Assembly (NCBI RefSeq): GCF_000429445.1
Contig: NZ_AUBW01000026.1
Coordinates: 1 to 64,000, forward strand
Direction: 5' to 3'
Source: Algoriphagus terrigena DSM 22685
GTDB taxonomy: Bacteria > Bacteroidota > Bacteroidia > Cytophagales > Cyclobacteriaceae
Length of the DNA stretch: 64,000 bases
Shown here: positions 30,957 through 35,593 of the stretch, in pieces
How the letters are laid out: the number at the start of each line of letters is the position of its first letter
Position numbering within the stretch: the stretch's first letter is position 1
Program-made: the position numbers and the translations under genes
The notes under the pieces: generated by a model
What the model saw: only the letters and a program-made list of their open reading frames with translations
What the model was told of the DNA's origin: nothing
Databases searched by the model: none

Positions 30957-32042
30957 ATGTCTACCTTTGCGCCAGTTATGAACAGAGTAAGGCTTTACTG
31001 GGTATTGCAGATTATAGGTTGGGGAAGCTTTGCCTTTGTCAATGTCTTTTTTGCCTCTCTTTCGCAGGGTATTTCGGCCGTCCAGATTTGGGCATTTGTC
31101 GTTCTGGCTGCTTTTTACCTGATTTCTACCCACGCGCTCCGTCATGTGGTCAAAGAATACGGATGGTTTCGGCTTGGGATTTTCCAACTTTTGGTCCAGA
31201 CGATCCTTGGTTTGCTGGTGCTGTCTGTAGCCAATGTGCTGGCTCAAATCCTGATCAACCTGGCTTTTGGTACGCTGAAACCAGAGGATGATTTTAGGTC
31301 GCTGGTGATCGCCGTCAACCTGTTCGTCAGTTTCCTGTATTACGCATTTTGGTTCTTGCTTTACTTTTTGTTCCACTTTCTGGACAACTACAACAACGGC
31401 CTGCGATACGAGGCAAAGATCAATGAGATCCGGCTCAACCATCTGAAGAACCAGTTGAATCCGCATTTCATCTTCAACGCACTGAATTCTGTCCGGGCGC
31501 TCGTCGATGAGGATCCCAACAAAGCCAAGTCGGCGATTACTAAGATCTCCAACATGCTTCGGTTTTCGCTCATGATGGACAAAAAGCAGGTCATTGATTT
31601 TGCCGAGGAACTGGCCACCGTCAAAGACTATCTCGCGCTGGAGTCGATCCGGTTTGAAGAGCGACTAGAAGTCGTCTATCACATCGAAGACGAAGCCTAC
31701 AGCTACAAAATCCCCCCGATGATGCTCCAGACCATCGTGGAAAATGCCATCAAACATGGCGTATCCAATTTGGTCAAGGGTGGATTGATCGAGATCAAAT
31801 GCCGGGAGGGACTCGAGAACGAGCTGTATATCCAGGTGAAAAACAGCGGTTACCTCAATCCCAATGCCTCCAAGTCCAAACGCGACGAAGGCGGACATGG
31901 AATCGAAAATACCCGCCAGCGTCTCAAACTCCTCTATGGAGATCAGGCCAGCTTCCGGATTTTCAACTCAGGAAGCCAATTCGTGATCACCGAAATCAAA
32001 ATTCCCAAACAAAGAGTTACTTTAGAATATCAAACTCAATAA
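30957..32042 (+). CDS. LytS-type sensor histidine kinase
   Basis: A 361-residue membrane kinase with four membrane helices in the first ~145 residues and no extracytoplasmic sensor domain. The His_kinase (PF06580-type) motif LNHLKNQLNPHFIFNALNSVRALV contains the phosphorylated His, followed by the ATPase N-box VENAIKHGV and G-box GGHGIENTRQRL. It pairs with the LytTR regulator two bases downstream. The start could instead be ATG 30978 (MNRVRLYW), because the first codons contain a strong -7-like element, TACCTTTG at 30962-30969. Confidence 0.92.
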   Translation: MSTFAPVMNRVRLYWVLQIIGWGSFAFVNVFFASLSQGISAVQIWAFVVLAAFYLISTHALRHVVKEYGWFRLGIFQLLVQTILGLLVLSVANVLAQILINLAFGTLKPEDDFRSLVIAVNLFVSFLYYAFWFLLYFLFHFLDNYNNGLRYEAKINEIRLNHLKNQLNPHFIFNALNSVRALVDEDPNKAKSAITKISNMLRFSLMMDKKQVIDFAEELATVKDYLALESIRFEERLEVVYHIEDEAYSYKIPPMMLQTIVENAIKHGVSNLVKGGLIEIKCREGLENELYIQVKNSGYLNPNASKSKRDEGGHGIENTRQRLKLLYGDQASFRIFNSGSQFVITEIKIPKQRVTLEYQTQ

Positions 32043-32044
32043 CG

Positions 32045-32776
32045 ATGAGAGCCATTGTAATAGACGACGAAAGACTAGCGCGCAAAGAATTGATCAATCT
32101 ACTCAACCAGCTGGAAACGGTAGAAGTGATCGGCGAAGCGGTCAACGTAGACGATGCCAAAGAGAAAATCGAGCAACTTCAGCCCGATGTGATCTTCCTC
32201 GACATCCAAATGCCCGAGAAAACAGGCTTTGACCTACTGGAAGAGCTGGATCATGTGCCCCACGTGATCTTCACGACTGCGTACGACGAATACGCGCTGA
32301 AGGCGTTCCAAGTGAATGCGCTGGACTATCTACTGAAGCCCATAGAGCCCAAGAGGCTGGAAGATGCGATCAACAAATTGCTGGGCAAGATCGAGGAAGT
32401 TTCAAAAAGAGACGACGAATCCTCGGTCAACCAAAAGAAACTGACACTGGAAGATCAGGTTTTTGTCAAAGACGGAGACCGTTGCTGGTTTGTGAGACTT
32501 TCGAATGTTCGCCTGTTTGAATCCGACGGGAACTATATCAAAGTGTATTTTGACAACTTCAAGCCGATGATTCATAAGTCGCTCAACGCACTCGATGAGC
32601 GCCTGGATGAGAAGTCTTTCTTTCGCGCCAGCCGCAAGCATATCATCAATCTCGGATGGGTAGAGGGCATTGAGCCTTGGTTCAACGGAGGCTTGGTCGT
32701 CACACTCAAAGGTGGCGACAGAATCGAAGTGAGTCGGCGACAAGCTGCCCGCTTTAAGGAAATGATGAGCCTCTAG
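32045..32776 (+). CDS. LytTR family response regulator
   Basis: Partner of the upstream kinase; its ATG lies two bases past the kinase stop. The 243-residue protein has a receiver domain with acidic pair DDE near residue 8, phospho-acceptor Asp in VIFLDIQMPEKTGFD (about residue 57), the Thr and Lys of the switch (FTTAYDEYALKAF, LLKPI), then a LytTR DNA-binding domain (about 140-243) with ESDGNYIKVYF and FFRASRKHIINLGWVEGIEP. LytTR proteins bind direct repeats upstream of targets; none was identified nearby. Confidence 0.93.
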   Translation: MRAIVIDDERLARKELINLLNQLETVEVIGEAVNVDDAKEKIEQLQPDVIFLDIQMPEKTGFDLLEELDHVPHVIFTTAYDEYALKAFQVNALDYLLKPIEPKRLEDAINKLLGKIEEVSKRDDESSVNQKKLTLEDQVFVKDGDRCWFVRLSNVRLFESDGNYIKVYFDNFKPMIHKSLNALDERLDEKSFFRASRKHIINLGWVEGIEPWFNGGLVVTLKGGDRIEVSRRQAARFKEMMSL

Positions 32777-32897: not shown

Positions 32898-33653
32898 ATG
32901 AAAGAAGAACGAATTCTGATTGTCGAGGACGACTTAAGTATTGCAGAGAATATCCAGGAAATACTTGAGCTCTTGGGCTACGTGAATATCGACATCGCCA
33001 ACTCCGCGAATCAGTGCATCAAGGTCATCAAAAAATATCGGCCGGATCTGATTTTCATGGATATCAAGCTGAAGGGTGACAAAGACGGAATCGAGCTGGG
33101 CGAGATTGTGAAGCAGATGGTGGATGCGCCGCTTGTATTTGTGACTTCCTACAGTGATCCGACGATCATCGAGCGCGCCAAGCGAATCGCTCCGGCAGGC
33201 TTCATCGTGAAGCCGTTCAATACGAATGACATCCACGCGATCGTGGAGATTGTGCTCTATAACAAGCGCACCAAGCCAGCGCCGGAAGCGGCGGTCGTGA
33301 AGACTGGCAACGAAAGCCCCTATCTGGTCAATGATGCGGTTTTTATCAAAGCCGACAACGCCTTTGAGCGGGTTCAGTACGACGATATTTTCTATGTGGA
33401 GGCCAATGGCAACATGGTGACCATCTTTACCAAAAACCGTGACTACAGCATCCGGAAATCCATGAAGGAGATCGAAGACATACTTCCTTCCCATTTGTTT
33501 CTACGGGTTCAAAAGTCCTATATCCTCCATCTCGGACAGATCGAGAGCTTCAATACCAAAGAGATCATGCTCAGACAGGGAGGCGTAATCCAGGTAGGAA
33601 GGCAATATTACAACAGCTTCCTGGCCAAGCTGAACACCATCACTGAAAGTTAA
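32898..33653 (+). CDS. Second response regulator with LytTR domain
   Basis: A 251-residue regulator in its own transcription unit, 121 bases after the first. The receiver domain has ILIVEDDLSIAENIQ and the phospho-acceptor Asp in LIFMDIKLKGDKDGIEL (about residue 55), as in chemosensory or hybrid-kinase receivers rather than in the first regulator. A LytTR domain follows (about 150-251) with EANGNMVTIFTKN and FLRVQKSYILHLGQIESF. Its cognate kinase is not obvious; the local LytS kinase or an unlinked kinase could phosphorylate it. Confidence 0.9.
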   Translation: MKEERILIVEDDLSIAENIQEILELLGYVNIDIANSANQCIKVIKKYRPDLIFMDIKLKGDKDGIELGEIVKQMVDAPLVFVTSYSDPTIIERAKRIAPAGFIVKPFNTNDIHAIVEIVLYNKRTKPAPEAAVVKTGNESPYLVNDAVFIKADNAFERVQYDDIFYVEANGNMVTIFTKNRDYSIRKSMKEIEDILPSHLFLRVQKSYILHLGQIESFNTKEIMLRQGGVIQVGRQYYNSFLAKLNTITES

Positions 33654-33690
33654 AAAGACAACACACTCTATCTTTGGAGGGAAAACAAAA

Positions 33691-33711
33691 AGGCGGGTAA
33701 AAACCCGCCTC
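33691..33711. terminator. Bidirectional terminator between LytTR gene and the small minus-strand unit
   Basis: Arms AGGCGGGT and ACCCGCCT with a four-base loop, A-rich on the left and T-rich on the right. It can end the plus-strand regulator gene and the minus-strand small transcript. Confidence 0.75.
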
Positions 33712-33761
33712 TTTCGATTAACCAAACAATCAACCAAATTAACCCTTACGGATAATTGTCT

Positions 33762-33869
33762 TTAACAAGTCCCGGAATCCTGGGACTTTTCTGTTTTGTA
33801 GATGTTTACCTGAAGTTTCTCAGGACTTTTGTCAGTAGCGAATCCGATCTGTGGAGTTGGTTTAGTCAT
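33762..33869 (-). CDS. Possible 35 aa peptide (second ORF of small unit)
   Basis: A 35-codon reading frame whose ATG overlaps the stop of the 41 aa ORF as ATGA, suggesting coupled translation. The peptide (MTKPTPQIGFATDKS..., ending SGTC) is polar, with a C-terminal cysteine, and has no recognised family. It ends about 50 bases before the terminator at 33691-33711. The frame is too short to prove coding by itself; position within a unit that has a promoter and terminator is the main support. Confidence 0.3.
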   Translation of the reverse strand: MTKPTPQIGFATDKSPEKLQVNIYKTEKSQDSGTC

Positions 33870-33991
33870 TTCAAATCGGGCAGTTGCTGTGCAAGGCTGG
33901 TTTCAGATTTTGCTTTGAGCACGATAGTGATTGCCATTGCAAATCCCAGTGCCGCACAGACGTTTTTTTGAGAAAAGGTTGCAGTAGTCAT
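33866..33991 (-). CDS. Possible 41 aa peptide (first ORF of small unit)
   Basis: A 41-codon frame starting at ATG 33991, about 70 bases after a consensus promoter read on the same strand. It encodes MTTATFSQKN, a hydrophobic stretch (about residues 11-24, VCAALGFAMAITIV) and a polar tail ending QQLPDLK. It could be a small membrane peptide or a leader peptide; no family is recognised. It overlaps a 71-codon plus-strand frame that lacks supporting signals. The whole transcript could equally act as a small RNA. Confidence 0.35.
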   Translation of the reverse strand: MTTATFSQKNVCAALGFAMAITIVLKAKSETSLAQQLPDLK

Positions 33992-34060
33992 GGCAGTAAT
34001 AATGTTGGTTTGTTTTGTATATCACCTTATGCCAAAAGGCGACCAAACTTTAAAAACCCC

Positions 34061-34114
34061 CAAAAATAGCGTAGGAGGCACTTTTTCCAAAAATCACTGT
34101 ACGGTTCCGTACAG
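34061..34114 (-). promoter_or_regulatory. Consensus promoter with adjacent palindromic operator
   Basis: Read on the minus strand: a perfect inverted repeat CTGTACGG-N2-CCGTACAG (34097-34114), five bases later TTTG (-33, 34088-34091), exactly 19 bp of spacer, then TATTTTTG (-7, 34061-34068). The two boxes match the Bacteroidota TTTG-N19-TAnnTTTG consensus completely. A second smaller inverted repeat (CACTG-C-CAGTG) lies at 34117-34127. The palindrome next to the -33 box suggests a dimeric regulator. Confidence 0.65.
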
Positions 34115-34189
34115 CACACTGCCAGTGGCGGACAATATTTCGAAAAGTGAAAAGTTACACGAGAGATAGGAAATTCTTAGAGTTTAACA

Positions 34190-34243: not shown

Positions 34244-35593
34244 CTACAACAACTCATTCGCAAGATTGGCCAGCTCAGACCGTTCGCCTTTCTCCAGCTT
34301 GATATGCGCATAAAGCGGGTGATCCTTCACCCGATCGATCAGGTACGACAATCCATTGGACTGCGAATCCAAATAGGGCGTGTCGATCTGGAAGACGTCG
34401 CCGGTGAAGATGATCTTGGTGTTTTCCCCAGCCCGGGATATGATCGTCTTGATCTCATGCGGAGTCAGGTTCTGTGCCTCATCCACGATGAAGAAGATAT
34501 TGGAAAGCGAACGACCCCGGATATACGCCAAAGGCTGTATGACCAATTTTTCTTGGTTCACCAGTTCGGTGATCTTCTGGAATTCCTTGTCGGTCTCCTT
34601 GTATTGATTTTGGATAAACTTCAGGTTGTCCCAGAGCGGCTCCATGTAGGGATTGAGCTTGGACTTGATATCACCGGGCAGGTAGCCGATGTCTTTGTTG
34701 GAGAGCGGCACAATAGGTCGGGCCAGGAAGATCTGCTTGTACTCTCTTCGCTGCTCCAGCGCGCCAGCCAAAGCCAAGAGCGTCTTTCCTGTTCCTGCCA
34801 CGCCCTGGATCGAGACCAGTTTGATGGCTGGGTTCATGATTGCGTGCAGCGCAAAGGTCTGCTCGGCATTCTTGGGCTTGATGTTGTAAGCCAAGCGCTT
34901 ATCCACGCGCTCCAGTACGCTTTCCTCCGAATTGTAGTAAGACAACACCGAGTTTTTCTCGTTTTTCAGGATGTAAAAGGCATTTGACTTTCGCTTTCGT
35001 GTGCCCAGGACATTTTTAGCTTCGATATACCCTTGCTCATAGAGCTTGTTGATCGCATCGGGATCCACGTCATCCAGCACGTACTTTCCGGTGTTTTCGA
35101 GTTCGGTTATGTTTTTGATCTTCCCCGTCTCGTAGTCTTCGGCGTTTACATTCAGCGACTTGGCCTTGAGTCTCAGGTTGATGTCTTTGGACACCAGGAT
35201 GACCTTTCGGGTCTTCTCAGTCTCCATGAGATGCACCGCGACATTGAGGATTTTGTTGTCGTTTTTGTCGTCCCCAAAGATCTCTACGGCATTCCTCTCA
35301 TTTTTTGGATGCTGCATCATCACCTTGAAGTTGCCCTTGGTCTTCCCGTTGAGCGGCGTCCATTCGTGAATCATGTGGTCAGCGGACAGCTTATCCAACA
35401 ATCGGATAAACTCCCGCGCCTCAAAATTCTTGGTGTCGTTGCCCTTCTTGAACTGGTCAAGCTCCTCCAGCACGGTGATCGGTATTACCACGTCGTGCTC
35501 GGCAAAATTCATGATGGAGTTGTGTGCATAGAGGATCACGGACGTGTCCAGCACAAAGATTTTCCGATCTTTATCGGACTTGGCTCTAGGCAT
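34244..35593 (-). CDS. PIN-PhoH fusion protein (PhoH2/YlaK type)
   Basis: A 449-residue protein with an N-terminal PIN nuclease domain (KIFVLDTSVILYAHNSI, then acidic residues in VLEELDQFKKG and VILVSKDINLRLKAK) and a C-terminal PhoH ATPase with Walker A GVAGTGKTLLALA, the RPIVPL motif and Walker B NIFFIVDEAQNLTPHEIKTI. PIN-PhoH proteins are RNA helicase/RNase enzymes. It is transcribed alone and ends at an intrinsic terminator. Confidence 0.92.
   Translation of the reverse strand: MPRAKSDKDRKIFVLDTSVILYAHNSIMNFAEHDVVIPITVLEELDQFKKGNDTKNFEAREFIRLLDKLSADHMIHEWTPLNGKTKGNFKVMMQHPKNERNAVEIFGDDKNDNKILNVAVHLMETEKTRKVILVSKDINLRLKAKSLNVNAEDYETGKIKNITELENTGKYVLDDVDPDAINKLYEQGYIEAKNVLGTRKRKSNAFYILKNEKNSVLSYYNSEESVLERVDKRLAYNIKPKNAEQTFALHAIMNPAIKLVSIQGVAGTGKTLLALAGALEQRREYKQIFLARPIVPLSNKDIGYLPGDIKSKLNPYMEPLWDNLKFIQNQYKETDKEFQKITELVNQEKLVIQPLAYIRGRSLSNIFFIVDEAQNLTPHEIKTIISRAGENTKIIFTGDVFQIDTPYLDSQSNGLSYLIDRVKDHPLYAHIKLEKGERSELANLANELL

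Follow-up and report, generated by a model that had tools for sequence, protein, structure and literature searches.

The window analysed here is a 64,000-nucleotide stretch of the genome of Algoriphagus terrigena DSM 22685, and the locus of interest is a compact unit on its minus strand, flanked by a convergent LytTR response regulator gene and by an upstream PIN-PhoH gene. Inspection of the sequence finds the palindrome, the promoter match, the ORFs and the hairpin all at the positions given in the first-pass annotation, and likewise the two LytTR regulators that it placed beside the unit. Searches of the whole window gave nothing in Rfam at gathering score, and no tRNA. The features are these:

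Ending at 32776: the first LytTR response regulator gene
32898 to 33653, plus strand: the second LytTR response regulator gene (Pfam Response_reg and LytTR), convergent neighbour of the unit
33682 to 33710, minus strand: Rho-independent terminator of the unit, evident in the sequence and with compensatory stem changes
33716 to 33751, minus strand: 3′ block CCGTAAGGGTTAATTTGGTTGATTGTTTGGTTAATC, nearly invariant (24 invariant columns in 49 rows) and probably unpaired
33762 to 33991, minus strand: peptide gene, one ORF in relatives, split in the window into ORF1 (33866 to 33991, 41 codons) and ORF2 (33762 to 33869, 35 codons) with an ATGA overlap
33767 to 33788, minus strand: hairpin H3 at the 3′ end of the coding region, its stem kept as its sequence changes
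33809 to 33824, minus strand: hairpin H2 (CCTGA/TCAGG) of the window's clade, predicted by RNAalifold from 28 rows
33844 to 33879, minus strand: hairpin H1 in the coding region, 33872–33879 pairing with 33844–33851 around a loop with ACTAAACCAACT
34028 to 34046, minus strand: sigma-54-like -24/-12 element TTTGG-N10-GCATA, with GG at 34043–34044 and GC at 34031–34032
34061 to 34091, minus strand: match to TTTG-N19-TATTTTTG, not conserved and judged to be due to chance
34097 to 34114, minus strand: palindrome CTGTACGG-AA-CCGTACAG
34129 to 34135, minus strand: upstream half-site TTGTCCG, conserved in an alignment of the window and its relatives
34244 to 35593, minus strand: PIN-PhoH gene (Pfam PhoH and PIN_4), upstream neighbour and synteny marker outside the unit

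The proposal of a real minus-strand unit is borne out by its conservation, as a DNA query (33680–34180) matched 24 of 58 genomes, namely the window's own and 23 of its 35 congeners, and none of the 22 genomes of other genera. The 12 congeners lacking a DNA match are small assemblies of 2.2–2.8 Mb that are 67–91% complete. Across the order the unit was found in 41 of 390 genomes, all within one family. For comparison we used 51 Algoriphagus units, consisting of the window, loci L028 and L118, and 48 named relatives found by the protein (46 Algoriphagus records and two Cyclobacteriaceae MAGs), together with 18 loci from sister genera. The LytTR gene lies inside 21 of 23 fetched loci and the PhoH gene inside 19; long inserts separate PhoH from the unit in some loci, and the distance between unit and LytTR gene is about 13–25 kb in three genomes (G084, G250 and G346). 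Comparison of the relatives shows the palindrome, the -24/-12-like element, the ORF and the terminator to form one conserved unit that encodes one peptide.

The two overlapping ORFs of the original description turn out to be a single gene split by a one-base difference, since alignment shows that one base near 33885, present in relatives, is absent from the window, and the first relatives to be compared have a single continuous ORF in 22 of 23 cases, the exception being L028. On this ground we rejected an operon of two peptides, and because the frame is continuous in relatives we also dropped the idea of a programmed frameshift. The one-base difference may stem from a sequencing or assembly error; no second genome of the window's species is among the 58 genomes or the named records, from which near-identical records were possibly omitted. 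An intact ORF of 67–82 codons occurs in all 48 named loci, a count that is biased because these loci were found by the protein. With pairs at saturated synonymous sites excluded, all aligned codons together give a median dN/dS of 0.43 (793 of 1128 pairs used), the first 30 codons 0.18 (572 of 1128), codons 31–52 0.76 (1066 of 1128) and those beyond codon 52 0.80 (475 of 1128). The substitution pattern thus indicates purifying selection on the first 30 codons and weak constraint on the remainder. A hydrophobic stretch lies near the N-terminus of the peptide, and by the same comparison this part appears to be selected. In keeping with the first-pass remark that the products match nothing familiar, searches with the peptide gave nothing above cut-off in Pfam or NCBIfam and nothing of note in PHROGs.

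The sister-genus gene has the same N-terminus and is 115–120 codons long in 17 of 18 loci, where the protein carries a C-terminal part (PTVTFINKYGEVVAEFYG-like) that is absent from Algoriphagus; one of these proteins, compared with the PDB, gave no convincing match. The remaining sister-genus locus, L117 (around 2059), has an ORF of only 30 codons and retains a GG-N11-GC element and a TTTTTGGTTTAA tail ahead of the terminator. At the place of the unit in another genome (G301; L251 1831–2130) we observed a protein that has the sister-genus C-terminal part with a different N-terminus and no palindrome.

Upstream of the gene, the palindrome is conserved: at least 9 of its 10 specified bases are present in 49 of 51 Algoriphagus units, compared to 1.4% of shuffled upstream regions, and at least 8 of 10 in all 51, compared to 15.9% of shuffles. 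At least 9 of 10 bases are also found in 15 of 18 sister-genus loci. By eye, TGTCCG of the upstream half-site and TGTACG, with which the palindrome opens, have their starts 21 bases apart. The palindrome is probably an activator site.

The promoter proposed beside the palindrome fared differently. The match is present, with TTTG at 34088–34091, TATTTTTG at 34061–34068 and 19 bases between, yet with a relaxed spacing (TTTG-N17-21-TANNTTTG) it is found in the window alone, that is in 1 of 51 units, and the motif as first given occurs in none of the 50 other Algoriphagus units and none of the 18 sister-genus loci. What is conserved instead is a sigma-54-like element: all 51 Algoriphagus units have GG-N10-GC or GG-N10-GA with a core of TTGG, GGCA or similar, compared to 2.0% of shuffles when a slightly narrower rule was applied to these. 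Its distance to the palindrome is 69–72 bases in all units but one, which gives 41 (50 of 51). The first-pass model as a whole, in which an operon of two ORFs and two peptides is transcribed from a sigma-70-type promoter beside the palindrome, has in its favour that motif and ORFs do exist in the window; with the promoter match confined to one unit, for which we rejected it, and the ORF continuous in nearly all first relatives, we find that model hardly credible.

Of what a sigma-54-type promoter calls for, the window's genome has GG and GC at N10 spacing, rpoN, and enhancer-binding proteins, as ten of its proteins are strong matches to Sigma54_activat. Of 58 genomes, 55 gave a match to rpoN, among them the window's own; two of the three without a match, the drafts G004 and G028, are unit-bearing. 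The sigma-54 assignment is weakest in the spacing seen in the sister genera, where the element is GG-N11-GC/GA in 15 of 18 loci, has N10 in L106 and L110, and is missing in L115. The sigma-54 consensus quoted in PMC12316311, TGGCAC-N5-7-TTGCT, would include the N11 spacing. The region between palindrome and promoter was also scored for IHF sites with the usual consensus. Though such sites look attractive in some loci, we do not claim one, because no more than 5 of 51 Algoriphagus units and 3 of 18 sister-genus loci have a perfect site.

The transcribed part of the unit is predicted to fold. Over 49 units (L065 and L067 were skipped), H1 has a median z of -2.85 with 39 of 49 below -2, the window's own value being -2.0, compared to a median of -0.45 and 5 of 49 below -2 for the control, the coding sequence just upstream. 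The codons for T-A-R-F-E-x-T-K-P are nearly frozen synonymously, for instance GCC in 47 of 48 and CCA in 47 of 47. The arms of H1 are co-adapted: when they were swapped among 50 units, the units' own total was -365.7 against a permuted mean of -301.0 (sd 9.9), with 0 of 500 permutations as low, a figure that is inflated by the relatedness of the units. Swaps between the main arm types show the loss directly: 39 units go from -7.5 to -3.6, nine from -6.2 to -2.6, and L079 from -11.5 to between -2.0 and -3.0. The exception is the single arm of L055: joined to the L079 arm it gives -9.8, a better fold than the -5.8 with its own partner, and its 3′ arm is a good fit for the main type (-8.4). The formal count, made on a mixed alignment of H1, is weaker: the alignment is 73.3% paired, a level reached in 0 of 500 shuffles, with slid alignments giving 23–57%; its covariation score is matched in 12 of 500 shuffles, and pair changes on both sides are no commoner than in shuffles (310 of 500).

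H1, H2, H3 and the terminator are all predicted when RNAalifold is run on the window's clade (28 rows), with changes on both sides in 12 of 43 pairs, of which six belong to H3 (all six of its predicted pairs), four to the terminator, two to H2 and none to H1. The H3 region has a median z of -2.87, with 39 of 49 units below -2. Of the T-runs beside the hairpin at 33691–33710, the one that serves the minus strand is good and the one that serves the plus strand is weaker, so that the description of the terminator as bidirectional is correct only in part.

Between H3 and the terminator lies the 3′ block, with its 24 invariant columns, of which seven are the anchor GTAAGGG by which the rows were picked; L065 and L067 have GTAAGAG instead. 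Against this invariance, the mean synonymous difference in the coding sequences is 0.52. UUUGGUU occurs in the block in two copies in 38 of 51 units and in one copy in 13. No fold signal was found in the block (median z -0.75, 0 of 49 below -2), although RNAalifold can fold it on itself with 12 pairs, of which 11 are invariant. Ahead of the terminator, GTTTGGTT is also present in 15 of 18 sister-genus loci. The part GATTGTTTGGTTWA of the block occurs in 67 of 390 genomes, and nine such places outside the unit, when examined, showed no further part of the block.

Three loci have a disrupted ORF with the rest of the unit in place, namely the window, L028, which lacks both a start codon at the proper place and the N-terminal region, and L118, whose ORF contains three TGA and one TAA. 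Both L028 and L118 retain the palindrome, the -12 element, H1, the block and the terminator, with z for H1 of -2.2 and -3.2, respectively; their H3 regions score weakly (z -1.3 each). On these comparisons the RNA part (H1 and block) and the promoter appear conserved independently of the ORF, H3 being the weak point in L028 and L118. Because the fold and the 3′ tail are kept where the peptide is broken, the unit looks like a regulated two-in-one RNA.

Two simpler accounts have to be weighed at this point. The unit might be an ordinary gene for a small envelope protein under sigma-54, its hairpins and block serving only mRNA stability and termination, with no regulatory RNA at all. The longer protein of 115–120 amino acids encoded in nearly all sister-genus loci fits this account, as does the absence of the H1 loop motif from all 18 sister-genus ORFs, and so does the negative target prediction for the block described below. 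Against it, H1 sits in a coding region with nearly frozen synonymous sites and outlasts the loss of the ORF in L028 and L118, and the block is more conserved than the protein with no signal of a fold, so that we regard the account as possible and doubtful. Alternatively, the unit might be a purely non-coding RNA in Algoriphagus, derived from an older secreted-protein gene of which the short ORF is a remnant. The ORF broken in three loci and the C-terminal part missing from Algoriphagus speak for this, and the purifying selection on the first 30 codons and the intact ORF of all the named loci, biased as that count is, speak against it; we consider it distinctly improbable.

The conserved LytTR neighbour is, on its genomic distribution, the likeliest candidate for a regulator or signalling partner of the unit. 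An ortholog with at least 80% identity is found in 43 of 390 genomes of the order, and all 41 unit-bearing genomes have one, which favours the early suggestion of a LytTR link. The two genomes with LytTR and without the unit (G301 and G363) show no unit of this type in the stretch examined. Among 23 Algoriphagus genomes, 13 have both LytTR and unit and 10 have neither, a co-occurrence that can be partly due to shared descent and genome reduction. Those ten (G002, G003, G005–G008, G011–G013 and G019) are small assemblies of 2.2–2.8 Mb that lack LytTR and unit though rpoN was found. The first LytTR gene is adjoined by a His_kinase (PF06580) gene at 30957–32042, about 1.6 kb from the unit.

The distribution in two unit-bearing and two unit-less genomes had suggested another candidate activator, the bacterial enhancer-binding protein (bEBP) of locus L148. 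Scoring four candidates per genome, we rejected it as a universal activator because 5 of 41 unit-bearing genomes have no close ortholog. At L148 (1033–2418; L268) an NtrC-type response regulator is followed by a kinase-like gene, and is divergent from genes that are presumably adaptor- and permease-like. The locus is perhaps an envelope stress system.

If the palindrome is an activator site, other genes may share it. The pattern TGTNCG-N4-CGNACA occurs at five places in the window's genome, compared to one for a reversed control pattern, and two of the five stand upstream of two paralogous secreted-protein genes (MKTLFT...). Both paralogs have a good sigma-54 element (TTGGTATGTGCTTCGCA and TTGGTACGAGCTTCGCA) and a 5′ UTR box, CTAAACCAAC, that resembles the one of the unit. 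For copies of the protein from two other genomes, DUF3244 and Por_Secre_tail scored weakly and under the cut-off. Where a MKTLFT gene has a perfect copy of the palindrome, this carries less weight because it is also shaped like a terminator for the preceding gene. Over 38 genomes scanned, TGTWCG-N4-CGWACA occurs in 20, and control counts of 1–3 are common, so that single sites can be chance. The genes that share the palindrome are thus candidates for a regulon.

Some further occurrences in relatives were observed. At L156 (1467–1482 and 1792–2391) a palindrome, a sigma-54-like element and a TAAACCAAC-type 5′ UTR box are followed by MKTLFT..., an arrangement also seen in L157, L158, L161, L163 and L164, the protein being about 200–240 amino acids long. 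In four other genomes the same palindrome stands ahead of a PorV2-type gene, namely in L159 (1514), L160 (1545), L162 (1570) and L168 (1520); the L159 gene is PorV2 (NF052325, E 4e-170), and the other three look alike by eye. These genes are divergent from two others, presumably PadR-like and PspC-like.

Of the 49 units whose start is defined, 45 have the 5′ UTR box AAACCAA, and in 9 of 18 sister-genus loci AAACCAAC is found after the start codon. As a general start-site signal AAACCAAC can be discarded: of 24 occurrences in a sample of 464 kb, 16 lie inside genes (ORFs under 120 codons were not counted as such) and three are in sense within 100 bases of a start. One more elaborate reading would give the box a central role, being placed in the 5′ UTR of the unit itself and in those of the co-regulated secreted-protein mRNAs. 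The block, through UUUGGUU, and the hairpin loop ACUAAACCAACU would compete for or copy the AAACCAAC box and so control the unit itself and a small envelope regulon. H1, in the coding region, would then be an internal decoy that draws an RNA or an RNA-binding protein, with sigma-54 and LytTR in control. When pairing of the block was scored against 354 gene starts, neither the co-regulated gene, of whose two paralogs one was scored, nor the unit was singled out (index 232 and 290); the median duplex energy of the starts was -18.1, and shuffled blocks gave -16.7 to -18.0. Duplex energy among these starts thus gave no sign that the block targets the co-regulated gene. We think the decoy reading unlikely.

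The reading that we favour, with confidence little better than even, is that of a sigma-54-controlled dual-function transcript of about 335 bases, comprising a small envelope peptide and a structured regulatory RNA. An activator bound at the palindrome (and at the TTGTCCG half-site) would turn on sigma-54 RNA polymerase at the -24/-12 element, with an RNA start predicted near 34019. Translation would yield a short inner-membrane or secreted envelope peptide, the 3′ part (H3, block and terminator) would act as a regulatory RNA on its own mRNA or on others, and the LytTR neighbour would serve as regulator or signalling partner. The first-pass interpretation is thus partly upheld: both products that it offered as alternatives, peptide and small RNA, find support in the comparisons, and the transcript length that it put at about 360 bases is here put at about 335.

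Several known systems offer parallels. LytTR-controlled small peptide systems are of the agr and com type. The unit is like them in having a LytTR regulator beside a gene for a small membrane or secreted peptide, half-sites 21 bases apart and a His_kinase gene nearby, and unlike them in its sigma-54-like promoter and in showing, by eye, no double-glycine leader. Dual-function RNAs include SgrS/SgrT and RNAIII. With these and with VcdRP of Vibrio cholerae, as portrayed in PMC8672173, the unit shares a short transcript, a small ORF, a conserved RNA part and a terminator; it differs in having a hairpin inside the coding region, in a peptide of about 76 amino acids compared to 29 in VcdP, and in belonging to Bacteroidota. 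UTR-derived sRNA candidates of Bacteroides thetaiotaomicron, going by PMC7366714, are likewise tied to coding genes whose terminator they share and come from the same phylum, but they were found by RNA-seq, whereas our unit, with its sigma-54-like promoter, is a prediction. Sigma-54-dependent genes with activator sites, as covered in PMC12316311, similarly have a -24/-12-like element, an upstream palindrome at a fixed distance and rpoN, the difference being the mostly N11 spacing of the unit in sister genera.

By titles and the starts of abstracts, the matches listed in a literature search, which mostly did not cover subscription journals, include no paper on this unit. To our knowledge, few studies have dealt with regulatory RNAs or sigma-54 targets in Bacteroidota outside Bacteroides. 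In A. terrigena DSM 22685 the peptide half of the unit is probably broken and the RNA half still working, which, on the dual-function reading, would make this a compact and testable case, in cultivable bacteria, of an RNA that outlives its peptide. The C-terminal part of the protein, kept in sister genera, is missing where the RNA hairpins occur, and the unit would also offer a way to study a small envelope regulon and a LytTR regulator that is highly conserved.
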